Source: Deltaproteobacteria bacterium (GTDB taxonomy: Bacteria; Desulfobacterota; Desulfarculia; Adiutricales; Adiutricaceae). Taken from it: a stretch of DNA of 64,000 nt. The notes beneath the pieces were generated by a model. That model made no database searches and was not told the origin of the DNA. It saw only the letters and a list, made by a program, of their open reading frames with translations. Positions 38,781 through 48,903 of this stretch are shown in pieces. The stretch spans positions 1-64,000 of the forward strand of contig JAISEK010000148.1 in the NCBI GenBank assembly GCA_031264145.1, in the 5' to 3' direction. The position numbers were made by a program, and so were the translations under genes. Every line of letters starts with the position of its first letter. The first letter of the stretch is position 1.

Positions 38781-41201
38781 CTAGCTCCGGAGCTCGGCCT
38801 GGAAGAGGTTCTTGAGACATGAGACTATGTCGTTAAAATACCCGTTTACCAACTCGTCCGTCAAGGTCCTGTCCGGTTCCTGGAAGAAAAGCCTCAGGGC
38901 CAGGCTTTTCTTGTCAGCCGGGATCTTGTCGCCCTGGTAGAGGTCAAACACGGCCACATCCGCCAGGGGCCAGGACGGATCCGACCTCATGGCGGCCAGG
39001 ACCTCGGCCGCCGGGACCTTCTGGTCCAGGAGGATGGCCATGTCGCGGGTCACCCCTGGGTAGTTGGACCAGATCCTGAAGGCCTGCCTTGACTCCGGCG
39101 GCAGACCGTCGGCCTCCAGCTCAAAGACGAAGACCTGCCCCCCGGCCTCCTTGAGGCCCAGCCGGCCGGCGACCTGGGCGGAGAGGAGACCAAGGTGGCC
39201 GACCTCCGCACCGTCCCTCAGGATCAGGCATGACTGAGAACGCTCGTAGAAGGGCGGAATCTGGCCAGGGTGCCTGGTGAAGGACAATTCCACCCCCAGG
39301 GACTGGGCCAGAAACTCAATCAGTCCCTTCGCATCCCAAAAATCGACCGGGCGCCGAGGATCGTTCCATTGGCCGTTGCCGGAGGCCCCGGCGAGAAGCC
39401 CGCCCAGCATCTGGGTCTCCACCGGCTTAGGCCCGTCTGGATTGGCCCAAAAAACCGTCCCCACCTCGAAGAGGGCAGCGTCCCACTGGCCGTGGTACTG
39501 GTTCAGCCTGAGGGCGGACAAAAGACCGGGAATGACGCTGGGCCGCAGGACCCCGTGGTCCTCGGACAGTGGATTTAGGACCGGGACCAAACGGGCCCGC
39601 CAGGGGTGGTCCGGGCCAAGCCCCATCTTGTCGGCGAAGTTCCGGTTTATGAATGAAAAGGTCAGCAACTCTGAGAGGCCGGCCCCGCAAAGGACGGAGC
39701 GGACCTTTTCCCGCAGGCGGTAAGCGGCAGGGGGCTCAGAGGCCGGGGCCTTGGGCTTGGGGAGGGTGGCCGGCAAGGCCTCGAAGTCGAGGAGCCGGCT
39801 GACCTCCTCGAAAAGGTCCACTTCCCTGGACAAATCGGGCCTCCAGGTCGGCAGGGAGGCCTGATAGACGCCTGGTTCCTGGCCGGAAAGGACCACGCCG
39901 ATGGCCCCCAGGACCCTCTCCATGTCCTTGGGTTTGTGGGCCGTGCCCAGAAGGGCATTGCATTTTTCGGGGGAGAAACTTACCGTCTTGCGCCCTATGA
40001 GCCTCGGGTAGGAGTCCAGCCTGCCGCTGGCCACCTGGCCGCCGGTCAGCTCGGCTATCAGGGCCGCGGCCCGGTCAACGGCCAAATGGCAGGCGTTGGG
40101 ATCCAGGCCGCGCTCAAAGCGGAAGGAGGCATCGGTCGACAGGCCCAGGGAGCGTGAGGTCCTGCGTATGGTGGCCTGGTTGAAGCAGGCCCCCTCCAGG
40201 AACACGTCCGTGGTCGAGTCGTCGACCTCAGTGTTCTGGCCGCCCATGACCCCGCCTATGGCCACCGGCCTCATGGCATCGCAAATCATGACGTTGCGCT
40301 CGGCCCTGAGGGTCCTCTCCTGGCCGTCGAGGGTGGTGAAGACCTCGCCGGCCGGGAACACCCTGACCACGATTTGCGGGCCGGCTATCTTGGCCAGATC
40401 GAAGGCATGCAGCGGGAGCCCGATCTCCAGCATGACATAGTTGGTCACGTCGACAATGTTGTTGATGGGCCGCAGGCCGGCGGACAGGAGCCTTTCGGCC
40501 ATCCAGGCCGGGCCAGGGCCGGTCGAGACGCCGTTGATGACCCGGCCGGCGTAGCGGAAACAGTGGTCCGGGTCCTCTATACCAACGCCAATCTGGTCAA
40601 AGGCCGAGCGGCCGGACTCCCTGAGGGAGGCCCGAGGCTCCTTGAGGGGCCTGTCCAGCAGGGCCGAGAGGTCCCTGGCGATGCCGACCATGGACAAGGC
40701 GTCTGCCCTGTTGGGGGTCACGCCAATCTCCATTACCAGATCGGACTTCCCCAGGAAGTCCGAGAGCCTGGTTCCAGGGGCGGCGGCCTCCAGGAGCATG
40801 ACCCGGCTGGCCTCGGCCGAGAGGCCCAGCTCCAGCTCCGAGCACAGAAAGCCCTTGGAGCATATCCCCGAGATGTTCCTTTCCTTGACCTGGCCAGCCG
40901 GCAGCTCCGTGCCGACCAGGGCCAGTGGGTAGACCAGGCCCAGATCGACCTGGGGGTCGCCGCACAGGACCTGTATCTCGCCGTGCTCACCGGCGGCAAG
41001 CTCCAAAAGCCTAAGGGCACCGCCGACGTCCCTGATCCTGGTCACCTTGGCGGCCACCACCGTCTGGAGGAAGGAGTAGCGGTCGCGGAGGTCCTCCACC
41101 TCCAACCCAGCCATGGTCAGCCGGTTGGCCACCTCCCGGGGCCCCAATCCTCCCAGGTCAACGTAATCCCCGAGCCAGGCTATCGATGCCAGCATAAACA
41201 C
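38781..41201 (-). CDS. pheT: Phenylalanyl-tRNA synthetase beta subunit
   Basis: ~800 aa full-length PheT: tRBD, B3/B4 and B5 regions, FDX-ACB C-terminus. Confidence 0.97.
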   Translation of the reverse strand: MFMLASIAWLGDYVDLGGLGPREVANRLTMAGLEVEDLRDRYSFLQTVVAAKVTRIRDVGGALRLLELAAGEHGEIQVLCGDPQVDLGLVYPLALVGTELPAGQVKERNISGICSKGFLCSELELGLSAEASRVMLLEAAAPGTRLSDFLGKSDLVMEIGVTPNRADALSMVGIARDLSALLDRPLKEPRASLRESGRSAFDQIGVGIEDPDHCFRYAGRVINGVSTGPGPAWMAERLLSAGLRPINNIVDVTNYVMLEIGLPLHAFDLAKIAGPQIVVRVFPAGEVFTTLDGQERTLRAERNVMICDAMRPVAIGGVMGGQNTEVDDSTTDVFLEGACFNQATIRRTSRSLGLSTDASFRFERGLDPNACHLAVDRAAALIAELTGGQVASGRLDSYPRLIGRKTVSFSPEKCNALLGTAHKPKDMERVLGAIGVVLSGQEPGVYQASLPTWRPDLSREVDLFEEVSRLLDFEALPATLPKPKAPASEPPAAYRLREKVRSVLCGAGLSELLTFSFINRNFADKMGLGPDHPWRARLVPVLNPLSEDHGVLRPSVIPGLLSALRLNQYHGQWDAALFEVGTVFWANPDGPKPVETQMLGGLLAGASGNGQWNDPRRPVDFWDAKGLIEFLAQSLGVELSFTRHPGQIPPFYERSQSCLILRDGAEVGHLGLLSAQVAGRLGLKEAGGQVFVFELEADGLPPESRQAFRIWSNYPGVTRDMAILLDQKVPAAEVLAAMRSDPSWPLADVAVFDLYQGDKIPADKKSLALRLFFQEPDRTLTDELVNGYFNDIVSCLKNLFQAELRS

Positions 41202-41476: not shown

Positions 41477-43051
41477 CTAGGCCCCGGCCGGGGCCCCGCC
41501 GCCGTTGCCGTTGCCGAGCTTGACCTCCTTGACAGCGGCCACGCTGTAGAGGCGGTTGACGGCGTTGACGTAGGCCCTCACGCTGGCCTTGATGACGTCG
41601 GTCGAGGCCCCGTTCCCTTGGGCCCTCAGGCCGTTTAGGGACAAGACCACCTGCGCCTCGCCCATGGCGTTGGAGCGCTCCGAGGTGGCGGCTATCCTGA
41701 ACGAGTCGAGCTTGGGATCGAGCCCGATTATGCGCTTGACTGCCGAGTAGGCCGCATCGACCGGGCCATTACCGGTGGCGGCGTCCTTGAGCTCGGCCCC
41801 GTCCCTGGCAAGGACTATGGTGGCCGTGGTCAGCCCGGGGCCGACGAAGACGGTGTAGTCCTTGAGCTCGTAGTGGCACTCGGGCCTGACGGAGAAGATC
41901 TCGTCGGCTATGATGGCCTCGATGTCGCCATCAGTGGCCTCCTTCTTTTCATCGCAGAGCTTCTTGAAGCTCTCGAAGGCCCTGGTAATCTGGATGTCGT
42001 CGAGGTTGTAGCCCAGAGACTCAAGCCTGTCCTTGAAGGCGTGGCGACCTGAGTGTTTGCCCAGGACCATGACCGCTGGGGTGCAACCAACGTCCTCGGC
42101 CCTCATGATCTCGTAGGTCTCCCTCTTGGCCAGTACCCCGTGCTGGTGGACGCCGGCCTCGTGAGCGAAGGCGTTGGCCCCGACCACGGCTTTGTTGGGA
42201 GGCACGAAGACGCCCGAGAGCCTTGAGACCAGACGGCTGACCGGGTACAGGCGCTTGGTCTCGATGCTGGTGGAGAGCCCGAAGAAGTCGGACCGGGTCT
42301 TGAGGCCCATGACCACCTCCTCGATGGCCGAGTTACCGCCGCGCTCCCCCATGCCGTTGATGGTGCCCTCGACCTGCCTCACCCCGGCCCGGATCGCGGC
42401 CAGCGAATTGGCGGTGGCCAGGCCCAGGTCATTGTGGGCATGTACGGAATAGATGACGTTCCCCGGGGCCCCGACCCCATCGATTATGGCCCCGCAGAGC
42501 CTCAGGAACTCCTCGGGCATGGCGTAGCCCACGGTATCCGGGATATTCAGGATGGTGGCCCCGGAATCAACGGCTATCTTGAAGGCGCGTATCAAGAACT
42601 CGACGTCCGAGCGGCTGGCGTCCTCGGCCGAGAACTCCACCTCGGCCATGAGAGAGCGGGCCAGGCTGACACCCGAGCGAATCTCGGCCAGGACCTCCTC
42701 CTGGCTCATCTTGAGCTTGTACTCCATATGGATGGGGCTGGTGGCCAGAAAGACGTGGAGCCTCGCATTCTCCGCCGGGGCCAGGGCCTGGGCGGCCGCC
42801 CTGATGTCCCCCTCCTTGGTCCTGGCCAGGCCGCAGACCGTGGTCTTCTTGAGCTCCCTGGAGATGGACTGGACGCAGTTGAAGTCGCCCGGGCTGGCGG
42901 CCGGGAAGCCGGCCTCGATGACGTCGACGCGCATTTTCTCCAGCTGCTTGGCGATCTGCAGCTTCTCGGCCACGTTCAGGTTGACGCCGGCTGCCTGCTC
43001 GCCGTCGCGCAGCGTGGTGTCGAAAAAATACACCCTGTTGGGATCAAACAT
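41477..43051 (-). CDS. leuA: 2-isopropylmalate synthase
   Basis: MFDPNRVYFFDTTLRDGEQAAGVNLNVAEKLQIAKQLEKMRVDVIEAGFP; HAHNDLGLATANSLAAI; C-terminal allosteric domain. Confidence 0.96.
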   Translation of the reverse strand: MFDPNRVYFFDTTLRDGEQAAGVNLNVAEKLQIAKQLEKMRVDVIEAGFPAASPGDFNCVQSISRELKKTTVCGLARTKEGDIRAAAQALAPAENARLHVFLATSPIHMEYKLKMSQEEVLAEIRSGVSLARSLMAEVEFSAEDASRSDVEFLIRAFKIAVDSGATILNIPDTVGYAMPEEFLRLCGAIIDGVGAPGNVIYSVHAHNDLGLATANSLAAIRAGVRQVEGTINGMGERGGNSAIEEVVMGLKTRSDFFGLSTSIETKRLYPVSRLVSRLSGVFVPPNKAVVGANAFAHEAGVHQHGVLAKRETYEIMRAEDVGCTPAVMVLGKHSGRHAFKDRLESLGYNLDDIQITRAFESFKKLCDEKKEATDGDIEAIIADEIFSVRPECHYELKDYTVFVGPGLTTATIVLARDGAELKDAATGNGPVDAAYSAVKRIIGLDPKLDSFRIAATSERSNAMGEAQVVLSLNGLRAQGNGASTDVIKASVRAYVNAVNRLYSVAAVKEVKLGNGNGGGAPAGA

Positions 43052-43228
43052 AAAAGCCTCCAAAAAAAGGATCAGGCCCTGGGAAAGGACGCTCCCCGGC
43101 TGGAACGGCCCCCGTCCGGCCAAGGCGGCCGGGCATGGCATACGAGCCCCGCCAAAAAGAAAGATTTATCCGCAAATGCCGAAAAAAACGCCGACAAACC
43201 CAAGGTCGGCCACCGGGGGCCCAGAAAC

Positions 43229-43252
43229 AAAAAAAGCCGGGGAGCCCCGGCC
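43229..43252 (-). terminator. Intrinsic terminator in leuA leader (attenuator)
   Basis: Minus strand GGCCGGGGCTCCCCGGC-TTTTTTTG, ~180 nt upstream of leuA ATG. Confidence 0.8.
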
Positions 43253-43283
43253 TGGATTGAGTCGCCTATGCCTTACCTCGGCG

Positions 43284-43406
43284 TTAGGCGGTACACCCAT
43301 GGCCGGACGACCGGTCAAGGCTAAGCAACAGGCTAAGGAGGAGCGGATCCTTCCCTGCCCCGATGGGGCCGGCCAGGACCTGGCTCTTTGGCAATGGATG
43401 GAACAT
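43284..43406 (-). CDS. leuL: Putative Leu-rich leader peptide (40 aa) of leuA
   Basis: MFHPLPKSQVLAGPIGAGKDPLLLSLLLSLDRSSGHGCTA*; codons CTC CTC CTT AGC CTG TTG CTT AGC CTT; RBS-like GGGAAGA; just upstream of terminator. Confidence 0.78.
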   Translation of the reverse strand: MFHPLPKSQVLAGPIGAGKDPLLLSLLLSLDRSSGHGCTA

Positions 43407-43770
43407 GGCTCTTCCCAAACAATCTTGAATACTTAGTCCGCCCAAAAGGCCTTGGGCAAAAACGGCCTCATGGCAAATTGACTAGAAATGTTTACCAAAG
43501 ACGGACAAAAAAATCAAGCATAAAAACGACCCTCCCTGTCCACGATATCTGACGCCCCTCGCACCCCTTTTCCCTGGCCCAGGCCGGCCCCCCGCTGACC
43601 ATGGCCGGCAAGCCTTCCAGCGCTGGCCGGCGTTGCCCCCGGAATACCAGCCCAAAGGCATCCCCCCTGGAGGCGCATGCCCCAGAATTGACAGCCAGCC
43701 GGCGCGCTGGATGACCAGGCGCCTATACTTCACCGCCGGGCCTTGTGCCGTCCATGTTGGGTACATTCGC

Positions 43771-46069: not shown

Positions 46070-46507
46070 ATGGAACTATTGCGTCGAAAGACAAGCAGAC
46101 GCAGCCTGGCAGACTCTCGATGCCGCCAATGGCGTCTGGGCGGCCTGCAAGCAGACCTTGTGCCTAGGCCAAAACGGGGGCCTTTATGGGAAATAGAGGA
46201 GCTGCTGCCTTACTTGGCCCAATCAGAGGGACTGGATTTCGCCTCGGATGGTACTGTCTTTTTGCCTCCATCCAGGTCAGCCCGAAAGACCCGCCCGACA
46301 AAATCGTCGAGACTGGCCAAGCCACGCCCCCGTGATCCCCGAACACGATTTTGTTGGGCTGCCTTTTTCGGCTCCTCGTCAGGCCTCAAAAAGAAAAAGC
46401 CATATCTGACGATAGGTCCGGGGAACCAATATAGCGCGGCTTATCCCCGCCAAGCCCGGGCCAGGGTCTTCGGCCAGGTCCAGGGAAAGGGGGGCGACGT
46501 AATATGA
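46070..46507 (+). CDS. Hypothetical basic protein (145 aa), coupled to next gene
   Basis: AAGAAAGGGG RBS 5' of ATG; stop overlaps next start (ATGA at 46504). Confidence 0.6.
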   Translation: MELLRRKTSRRSLADSRCRQWRLGGLQADLVPRPKRGPLWEIEELLPYLAQSEGLDFASDGTVFLPPSRSARKTRPTKSSRLAKPRPRDPRTRFCWAAFFGSSSGLKKKKPYLTIGPGNQYSAAYPRQARARVFGQVQGKGGDVI

Positions 46508-48903
46508 AAACCATAAGCCGTCCCCAAATCGACCTGCAGGGCCGCCTTCTGGCCGCCAAATTACTGCAACTCGGCGACAACTTGACCTTTGACCAGAGAG
46601 CCGACCTGTTGTATGGGTTCCTCAAGGATCGCAGGGCCCATGTCCTGGTTAGCTATGCCGAGATGATTAATAATAACTTATTGCCAAATAACAATTTATA
46701 TTCCATGCCGATTGACGACAGTATTTTTGAGAACGCCTATTTCGATGATTATGAAGAAGAAGACGAAACCGATGAAGATGATGGCGATATCTGGGACAAT
46801 GATGATGACTTCTCTGAGGAAAATGAGGCCACTGCGAACATATTTTTCACGAATATCAATTTGGGCTGGATCAATCCCCTCTTCTCAAGATCCATGACCA
46901 ACGCCAAATCGGTGTTCCTGATGCCTGCCCCAGGCTTGGTGCTTCTGGACATCACCTCCCGCCAAGGAAGGGGTTTAATCTACAATTACCAAGCCGTCAA
47001 CTCCGAGATCAAATTTAGCCCGAACCTAGTCAAAAGGGCGGCTCAATTGCTTGGCAAAGATTTGGCCGCTGAATCGTCAAGCCTGGCCAGGCGCCCCCCT
47101 AGGCTCGACAAGCGGTTGGTCCCCATTGGCCTCGACACGGTCCTGGACGACCCCGAGATCCATGATCCGGCCCCCTCCATTGTCCTTGACGAGATTGATC
47201 CCTACCAGGCCTTCCGGCTAATCAACTGGTGGGCCAGGCCAGACCAAGATCAATCCAAGAGGCCAGCCTGGGCCAACGTGTTTTTCAGGGTGAAAATTGA
47301 CCAGAACATGTATTCATATCATCCCACCTCGAGCGTCTTCCACCAGGTTAAGCTGAGATCGTTCTTTCCCGGCTCGCTTGACTTGTCCGCCCTGCCCCCT
47401 GGCCTTGCCGCTTTGGCCAGAGGAATAGGCCCTTTGGGGGACATTGGTCTACCACAAATCGTCAATTCCGAGCTGAATGCAGAGTTTGACATAAATATTG
47501 ATGATCAGGAACTAGATTTATTTGGTGATGACGATGACGATCTTGACTTTGATGATGATGATGATGATGATGTCGACGACTTCGGGGGTGATGACTTCGA
47601 TGATGACCAGGATAATGTCACTGAAGTTAAGGAGAATTATCCGGGTTCCGTTGGCGAAAAATGTCCGGCCAATGTTCTGGACAGGGATACCGAAGAGGAT
47701 CCTGGCGATGACTTTCCTGCATCGCCGGAAGAGTCACGTGATCAGCTACCAGGCGTCACCGGCGAGACGAGTGATGCCAGCCTGACCAATGTCACCAGCG
47801 ATGCTAATGGCAATAACAGCAACGAAAGAAAAAATGTCTTAAAAAAAGAAAAAACTGTGATATCTCCCTTCGATCTAACCTCACAACTACAAAAATCACT
47901 AATTCGCAATAGAGAATATTATTCTAAATACTATAAAACTCGTAAAAAAAATAAAAAATTGACCTTTAGGCTTAATGAATCTGAAGAGCAACTTAAAACT
48001 AGCCGAATACAACTCAAGGCTGTCGTGGCTGAACGAAACGGCATTCAAGAGGCCCTCCAAAAGACACAGGACGAGAACCTCGAACTTAGGCTGCGTCTAG
48101 ATAAACATGCGGAAAACGCAAAGCCATTCGCAGAAGAAATACAAAGCCTCAAGAACGAGAATGCGGAATTAAAGACAAAATACGATTCTACCCTTCGAGA
48201 ACTTGAAGCCGCCGACAAGAAAAATGAGGAGCTTTCCAAAGATCCCGACGAAGTGGCCATCGAAAACCTGGAGCTAATGTCTTCCCTCGATGAGGCCTTG
48301 AGCAAGATTAAGGAGCTTGAAAGTCTTTCCGCCAGCCAAGCCCTGGCCATAAACGATGCCAACCAAGAAAAACAGGAGTCCAATAAGGTCATAGCCAGCC
48401 TCAAGCTGGATCTGGAAAACTCTGGCCAGTGGATAGTGCCGGAATCCCTTTCCGATGTAGTGATAGCCGGCAAGCAATACTACAGCTCCAAGTTGATCTT
48501 CCATGACCGCCTGGCCCAGACCATTGCCGCCTTTCCCCAGGCCGAGTCGGACAAAAAGCACCGCATTGTCATGGAAGCGGTCAAAATAGTCAAGGCTTTG
48601 GCCGATACCATGTACACCATGAAGTTCGTGGACAACAACCTTTCCCAGGAACTGTTCCAGAGCATAACCGGCATCCGTTTCTCCATGACCGAGCGCCGGG
48701 CCACCAAACGGGAGAGGGCCTTGGAACTGGCCAGGACCTGCACCTACAATGGCAAGAAAGTCCAGTTTTTCCCCCACATAAAGTCGTCGATCCAGGGAAC
48801 TGAGTTCAGGGTGCACTTCCAATTCCTTGACGAGGAACGCAAAATTCTAATCTGCCACATGGGGGACCACCTGCCTACTGCCTATACCAAGTTCATAAAC
48901 TAA
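46504..48903 (+). CDS. Large hypothetical protein: acidic tracts, coiled coil, conserved-looking C-terminal domain
   Basis: 799 aa; DYEEEDETDEDDGD and DDDDDLDFDDDDDDDVDD tracts; heptad-like region; C-term CTYNGKKVQFFPHIKSSIQGTEFRVHFQFLDEERKILICHMGDHLPT. Confidence 0.85.
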   Translation: MKTISRPQIDLQGRLLAAKLLQLGDNLTFDQRADLLYGFLKDRRAHVLVSYAEMINNNLLPNNNLYSMPIDDSIFENAYFDDYEEEDETDEDDGDIWDNDDDFSEENEATANIFFTNINLGWINPLFSRSMTNAKSVFLMPAPGLVLLDITSRQGRGLIYNYQAVNSEIKFSPNLVKRAAQLLGKDLAAESSSLARRPPRLDKRLVPIGLDTVLDDPEIHDPAPSIVLDEIDPYQAFRLINWWARPDQDQSKRPAWANVFFRVKIDQNMYSYHPTSSVFHQVKLRSFFPGSLDLSALPPGLAALARGIGPLGDIGLPQIVNSELNAEFDINIDDQELDLFGDDDDDLDFDDDDDDDVDDFGGDDFDDDQDNVTEVKENYPGSVGEKCPANVLDRDTEEDPGDDFPASPEESRDQLPGVTGETSDASLTNVTSDANGNNSNERKNVLKKEKTVISPFDLTSQLQKSLIRNREYYSKYYKTRKKNKKLTFRLNESEEQLKTSRIQLKAVVAERNGIQEALQKTQDENLELRLRLDKHAENAKPFAEEIQSLKNENAELKTKYDSTLRELEAADKKNEELSKDPDEVAIENLELMSSLDEALSKIKELESLSASQALAINDANQEKQESNKVIASLKLDLENSGQWIVPESLSDVVIAGKQYYSSKLIFHDRLAQTIAAFPQAESDKKHRIVMEAVKIVKALADTMYTMKFVDNNLSQELFQSITGIRFSMTERRATKRERALELARTCTYNGKKVQFFPHIKSSIQGTEFRVHFQFLDEERKILICHMGDHLPTAYTKFIN

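Follow-up and report, generated by a model that had tools for sequence, protein, structure and literature searches.

Is the short leucine-rich open reading frame (ORF) that precedes leuA in a deltaproteobacterial genome the leader of a transcription attenuator? The control of leucine synthesis by leader-peptide attenuation is textbook knowledge for enteric bacteria, and a sequence-only reading of the whole 64,000-nucleotide stretch analysed here (the window) had proposed such an attenuator, as a new instance in one genome. Considering the sequence of the locus and its counterparts in other genomes, we conclude that the element is very probably a transcription attenuator of leuA, specific for leucine and mediated by the ribosome via leucyl-tRNA.

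Leader, terminator and leuA in the window

The locus lies on contig C41 of the host genome (4.0 Mb, 198 contigs), and its features are summarized in Table 1. The 40-codon ORF with seven Leu in nine codons was confirmed to the base, and it is indeed followed by a terminator and then leuA. The leuA product matched TIGR00973 (671.7 bits against a cut-off of 598.7) and contains the LeuA allosteric domain PF08502; it is thus a genuine 2-isopropylmalate synthase. Only one terminator-like site, that of the leader, was found on the minus strand between 41000 and 43800. The leader ORF had no match in Pfam, no strong ribosome-binding site was seen ahead of its ATG, and no sigma-70-like promoter was found 5' of it. 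Within about 450 nt upstream of the two ilvB genes and leuC of the window genome there was no Leu-, Ile- or Val-rich leader, and the switch therefore looks specific to leuA in this genome.

Table 1. Features of the probable leuA attenuator locus in the window
Feature	Position	Strand	Details
Leader peptide ORF	43284..43406	-	40 codons, MFHPLPKSQVLAGPIGAGKDPLLLSLLLSLDRSSGHGCTA, ATG start, TAA stop
Leader ORF ends	ATG 43406-43404; TAA 43286-43284	-	minus-strand reading
Control codons	43317..43343	-	CTC CTC CTT AGC CTG TTG CTT AGC CTT, 7 Leu/9
R2, putative antiterminator 5' arm	43295..43307	-	core TCCGGCC 43307-43301, within last leader codons
CCGGCC in leader	43306-43301	-	
R3, putative antiterminator 3' arm and terminator 5' arm	43246..43257	-	AGGCCGGG 43253-43246; to 43257 in antiterminator fold
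Predicted intrinsic terminator (region 3:4)	43229..43253	-	AGGCCGGG-GCTC-CCCGGCTT hairpin 43253-43234, T7 run 43235-43229
leuA, 2-isopropylmalate synthase, putative regulated gene	41477..43051	-	ATG 43051, GGAGG site just 5'

Some neighbouring features were also recorded. The gene directly downstream of leuA is pheT (38781-41201, minus strand), in the place usual for pheS, and the pheS gene of this genome is on a separate contig, C166. At least 16 relatives in the family also have leuA next to pheT, and an extended -10 promoter-like site lies between the two genes (41382-41354, minus strand). On the other strand, an ORF at 46504-48903 encodes 799 amino acids, including a strongly acidic segment rich in D/E and a long region resembling a coiled coil.

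Conservation of the leader and the terminator

The relatives in the family, identified by LeuA, are metagenome assemblies named 'Deltaproteobacteria bacterium', whose isolate names we take to be a termite-gut series. Termite-gut Adiutricaceae have been published (PMC9137090), and the order of the host is probably Adiutricales. Conservation of the Leu codons and the terminator in relatives, set beforehand as the test of the attenuator reading, did not refute it: a leader ORF containing a Leu run was present in 31 of the 33 leuA upstream regions of the family that were long enough to read, and a GC-rich terminator followed by a T tract in 32. The leader peptide outside the Leu run varies freely among the family members. 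Two sister families within the order, f2 and f3, yielded three readable genomes (L051, L132 and L133), all of which have the element, with leaders such as MKRGLKLSLLLLLGLTGCQGRGGL and a terminator that differs from that of the family; no such element was seen in the further families of the class and phylum whose regions were read. Together with six Planctomycetota genomes, described below, the leader has counterparts in 39 other genomes from two phyla (30 from the family and three from the order), and leader, terminator and antiterminator pairing are kept in the family, its two sister families and one Planctomycetota family.

Four members of the family look weakened in the element or seem to have lost it. 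L005 has three consecutive Leu only, and in L027 the leader frame extends into the terminator. L035, with a genome of 2.1 Mb, keeps the terminator with a broken leader frame, and L016 has lost the element entirely, pheT also not being found downstream at its leuA site; these last two are apparent cases of attenuator decay.

Nine Leu-rich ORFs that precede leuA in further classes and phyla (L037, L047, L105, L113, L122, L135, L137, L143 and L145) were not counted, since they resembled the ends of membrane proteins, overlapped neighbouring genes or had no terminator seen.

Co-variation of the pairing arms

The proposed pairing of CCGGCC in the leader with the 5' arm of the terminator turned out to be conserved. 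In most loci, R2 follows the Leu run, precedes the stop codon and mimics the 3' arm of the terminator, and for this reason it can pair with R3. R2, R3 and R4 change jointly: GCCGGG/CCCGGC terminators occur with R2 CCGGC, the GCCAGG/CCTGGC terminator of genus g6 with R2 CCTGGC, and those of f2 and f3 (ACCCCGCC or GCCCCGCC, CCCCGCC/GGCGGGG) with R2 GGCGGGG. R2 also matches bases of the terminator loop (GACCCGGC with GCCGGGTC, TACCCGGC with GCCGGGTA, and CTCCCGGCC with GGCCGGGAG). Since the terminator stem leaves the loop bases unconstrained, this match points to an antiterminator, which alone would explain it.

We tested the co-variation by swapping R3 among 13 clades, which lowered the mean pairing score from the observed 22.0 to 18.7 (permutation P = 0.0002; P = 0.0012 within the family alone; both values are approximate because the clades are not fully independent). 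R2 outscored an equal-length control stretch 5' of the Leu run in 34 of the 40 loci, and the R2:R3 pairing was weakest in genus g7 and three Planctomycetota loci. The distance from the last Leu codon to R2 is mostly 1-13 nt, that from R2 to the stop codon mostly 5-25 nt, and that from the leader stop to R3 and the terminator 31 nt in the median. The loci thus have the geometry of leader-peptide attenuators, with the control codons just 5' of R2 and the stop codon near enough that a terminating ribosome would cover R2.

These results bear on the alternative that the leader is translated and coupled to leuA, with control being translational, Rho-dependent or exerted by an RNA-binding protein, and with an incidental terminator. 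Such control has a precedent in the LEU element of actinobacterial leuA, also an upstream ORF with a Leu run, in which the run pairs with the ribosome site of leuA in a pseudoknot, the mutants did not behave as in classical attenuation and a protein binding the RNA was proposed (PMC1262725). However, the loci studied here have an antiterminator and an intrinsic terminator, the latter being outside the description of the LEU element (PMC1262725), and the strong intrinsic terminator stands a median of 31 bases past the leader stop, is kept in 32 of the 33 family members and has a 5' arm that co-varies with R2. We therefore regard this alternative as very improbable.

Leucine codons of the leaders

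Across the 40 leaders, the run contains mostly 4-9 Leu in 10 codons and draws on every one of the six Leu codons; what is kept is thus the amino acid rather than one DNA word. The description of the run as mixed synonymous codons was accurate in this respect, but it missed a strong enrichment of CTT, a codon seldom used in the host genes. In the runs of genus 1, 53% of the Leu codons are CTT against 7% in leuA (P = 4e-11), and in those of Planctomycetota 60% are CTT against 7% (P = 2e-14); CTT is also the final Leu codon of the run in 27 of the 40 leaders. Host-rare codons are typical among control codons. Between pairs within a genus, 188 of the 495 codon comparisons placed Leu opposite a different residue, which is an upper estimate because the runs were anchored without gaps; single Leu positions thus appear to be free, with the cluster being kept. 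In genus g8, the leaders of L021, L023, L024, L026 and L028 have alternating Val and Leu (such as VLVLVLTVGLVG), suggesting a broader input with joint sensing of valine and leucine.

T-boxes regulate leu operons in many Firmicutes, and a T-box or another known riboswitch might sense tRNA-Leu or leucine directly beside a spurious ORF. We consider this very unlikely. The program cmscan, applied to the window at the gathering threshold and to 43000-43650 at E values up to 5, gave tRNA or sub-gathering chance matches only, and the loci of 18 relatives likewise had no Rfam leader or T-box family. Furthermore, a codon-independent RNA sensor would not explain the conservation of Leu at the amino acid level through synonymous changes or the CTT bias. 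The remaining alternative, a chance Leu-rich ORF beside the ordinary terminator of an upstream gene, draws on the GC-richness of the window and its many spurious ORFs, but is scarcely credible and was ruled out by the comparison across genomes, given the counterparts in two phyla with co-varying pairing and given that only the leader among 714 ORFs of 15-80 amino acids in the window, and one ORF in 38,542 across 30 Markov-simulated windows, had at least seven Leu in nine codons.

Folding and the proposed mechanism

The folding of alternative structures in the window gave the two states expected from the attenuator reading: with a ribosome in the middle of the Leu run, a 12-pair antiterminator and zero terminator pairs were formed, and with a ribosome at the stop codon the full terminator was folded. 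The naked leader RNA of the window was folded without the terminator. Across the 40 loci, the terminator was the equilibrium fold in 38 with the ribosome at the stop codon and persisted in 21 with the ribosome in the middle of the run, which suggests that the switch depends on the co-transcriptional order. Note that the equilibrium calculation ignores the formation of R2:R3 ahead of the synthesis of R4, and it therefore decides neither for nor against the switch. A possible 1:2 anti-antiterminator hairpin (GTCGGCC...GGCCGAC) was seen by eye in one genus, g8.

With the ORF, the Leu run, the terminator, the alternative pairing, the geometry and their conservation established by sequence and comparison, we infer translation of the leader, ribosome stalling, read-through and a response to leucine, as follows. 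RNA polymerase would transcribe the leader with a ribosome following through the 40-codon ORF. When charged leucyl-tRNA is plentiful, the ribosome would reach the stop codon and mask R2, 14 bases upstream of it; R3 would then pair with R4, the terminator would form and leuA would be left untranscribed. When charged leucyl-tRNA is scarce, probably chiefly the isoacceptor reading CUU/CUC, the ribosome would stall within the Leu run, some 10 to 35 bases short of R2, and the free R2 would pair with R3 as the antiterminator, allowing the polymerase to continue into leuA.

Comparison with known attenuators

The closest parallel is the leuL-leuABCD system of Escherichia coli and Salmonella, which has a short Leu-rich leader with host-rare Leu codons, and a terminator and an antiterminator as alternative structures before leuA. 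Unlike that system, the element described here occurs in a deltaproteobacterial order and Planctomycetota, favours CTT in a run of mostly 4-9 Leu in 10 codons, and shows a possible 1:2 hairpin in a single genus, g8. The absence of an Rfam match indicates no detectable sequence relation to leuL/leuABCD. In Staphylococcus aureus, leucine represses ilv-leu by attenuation, as supported by mutants, and the attenuator also consists of a Leu-rich leader peptide and a terminator (PMC5794164). However, that attenuator governs the entire ilv-leu operon and has an extra Ile input, and the antiterminator proposed for it base-pairs to the poly-U tail, leaving the terminator stem intact, whereas R2 and R3 exchange partners here (PMC5794164).

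A search of the literature on leucine attenuation in Deltaproteobacteria, Geobacter and Planctomycetota, covering mostly open-access papers and hence weak evidence, gave nothing relevant. The mechanism is known and the host lineages appear to be new. The hosts are apparently unreported, and the element is conserved across a whole lineage, not confined to a single genome. An attenuator conserved in a deltaproteobacterial order and one Planctomycetota family, lineages for which no such report was found, provides about 40 natural variants with co-varying arms, decayed copies and a rare-codon bias, in which the evolution and loss of attenuators and their movement with genes can be studied.

Planctomycetota counterparts and the history of leuA

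The closest LeuA from outside the family, with 65% identity, belongs to the Planctomycetota assembly L063, whose leuA has its own Leu leader and a GGCCGGG...CCCGGCC terminator. The element was found in six of the nine genomes with a readable leuA upstream region in the gut Planctomycetota family of L063, and it was absent from the remaining three (G099-G101), which are all on one branch. The label Planctomycetota was taken from L063 and L069-L071, and the other genomes were grouped into the same family.

In the phylogenetic tree of 82 LeuA proteins, the family LeuA formed one clade (95/95), sister to a Planctomycetota clade (94/95), and both were placed within a group with Synergistaceae and one Oscillospiraceae sequence (100/99). 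LeuA from the two sister families f2 and f3 grouped with other Desulfobacterota. Because the family leuA is sister to Planctomycetota copies and apart from that of its own order, it is probably a xenolog, a replacement from outside. The Synergistaceae leuA copies that were read had no such leader. The switch arms of the family are more like those of Planctomycetota than those found elsewhere in its order, making co-transfer with leuA the simpler reading, although a native leader may have been retained before the incoming leuA. It is conceivable, if somewhat doubtful, that a complete attenuator crossed phyla with the leuA xenolog and that Planctomycetota use attenuation with the rare CUU codon and its tRNA as the signal.

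If this is true, leader-peptide attenuation would extend to Planctomycetota, where it would also involve Ile-rich leaders. Such leaders were observed upstream of ilvB in two genomes, L232 (G111) and L261 (G110) (MFSVVASISIIIEPIAIGDAMHGPA and MFATLAIISVIIEPIAIGDAMHGPA), and that of L232 is followed by a GCCCCGGGCTCATGCCCGGGGC-T6 terminator. The Ile-rich leader before Planctomycetota ilvB is likely to be a second attenuator.
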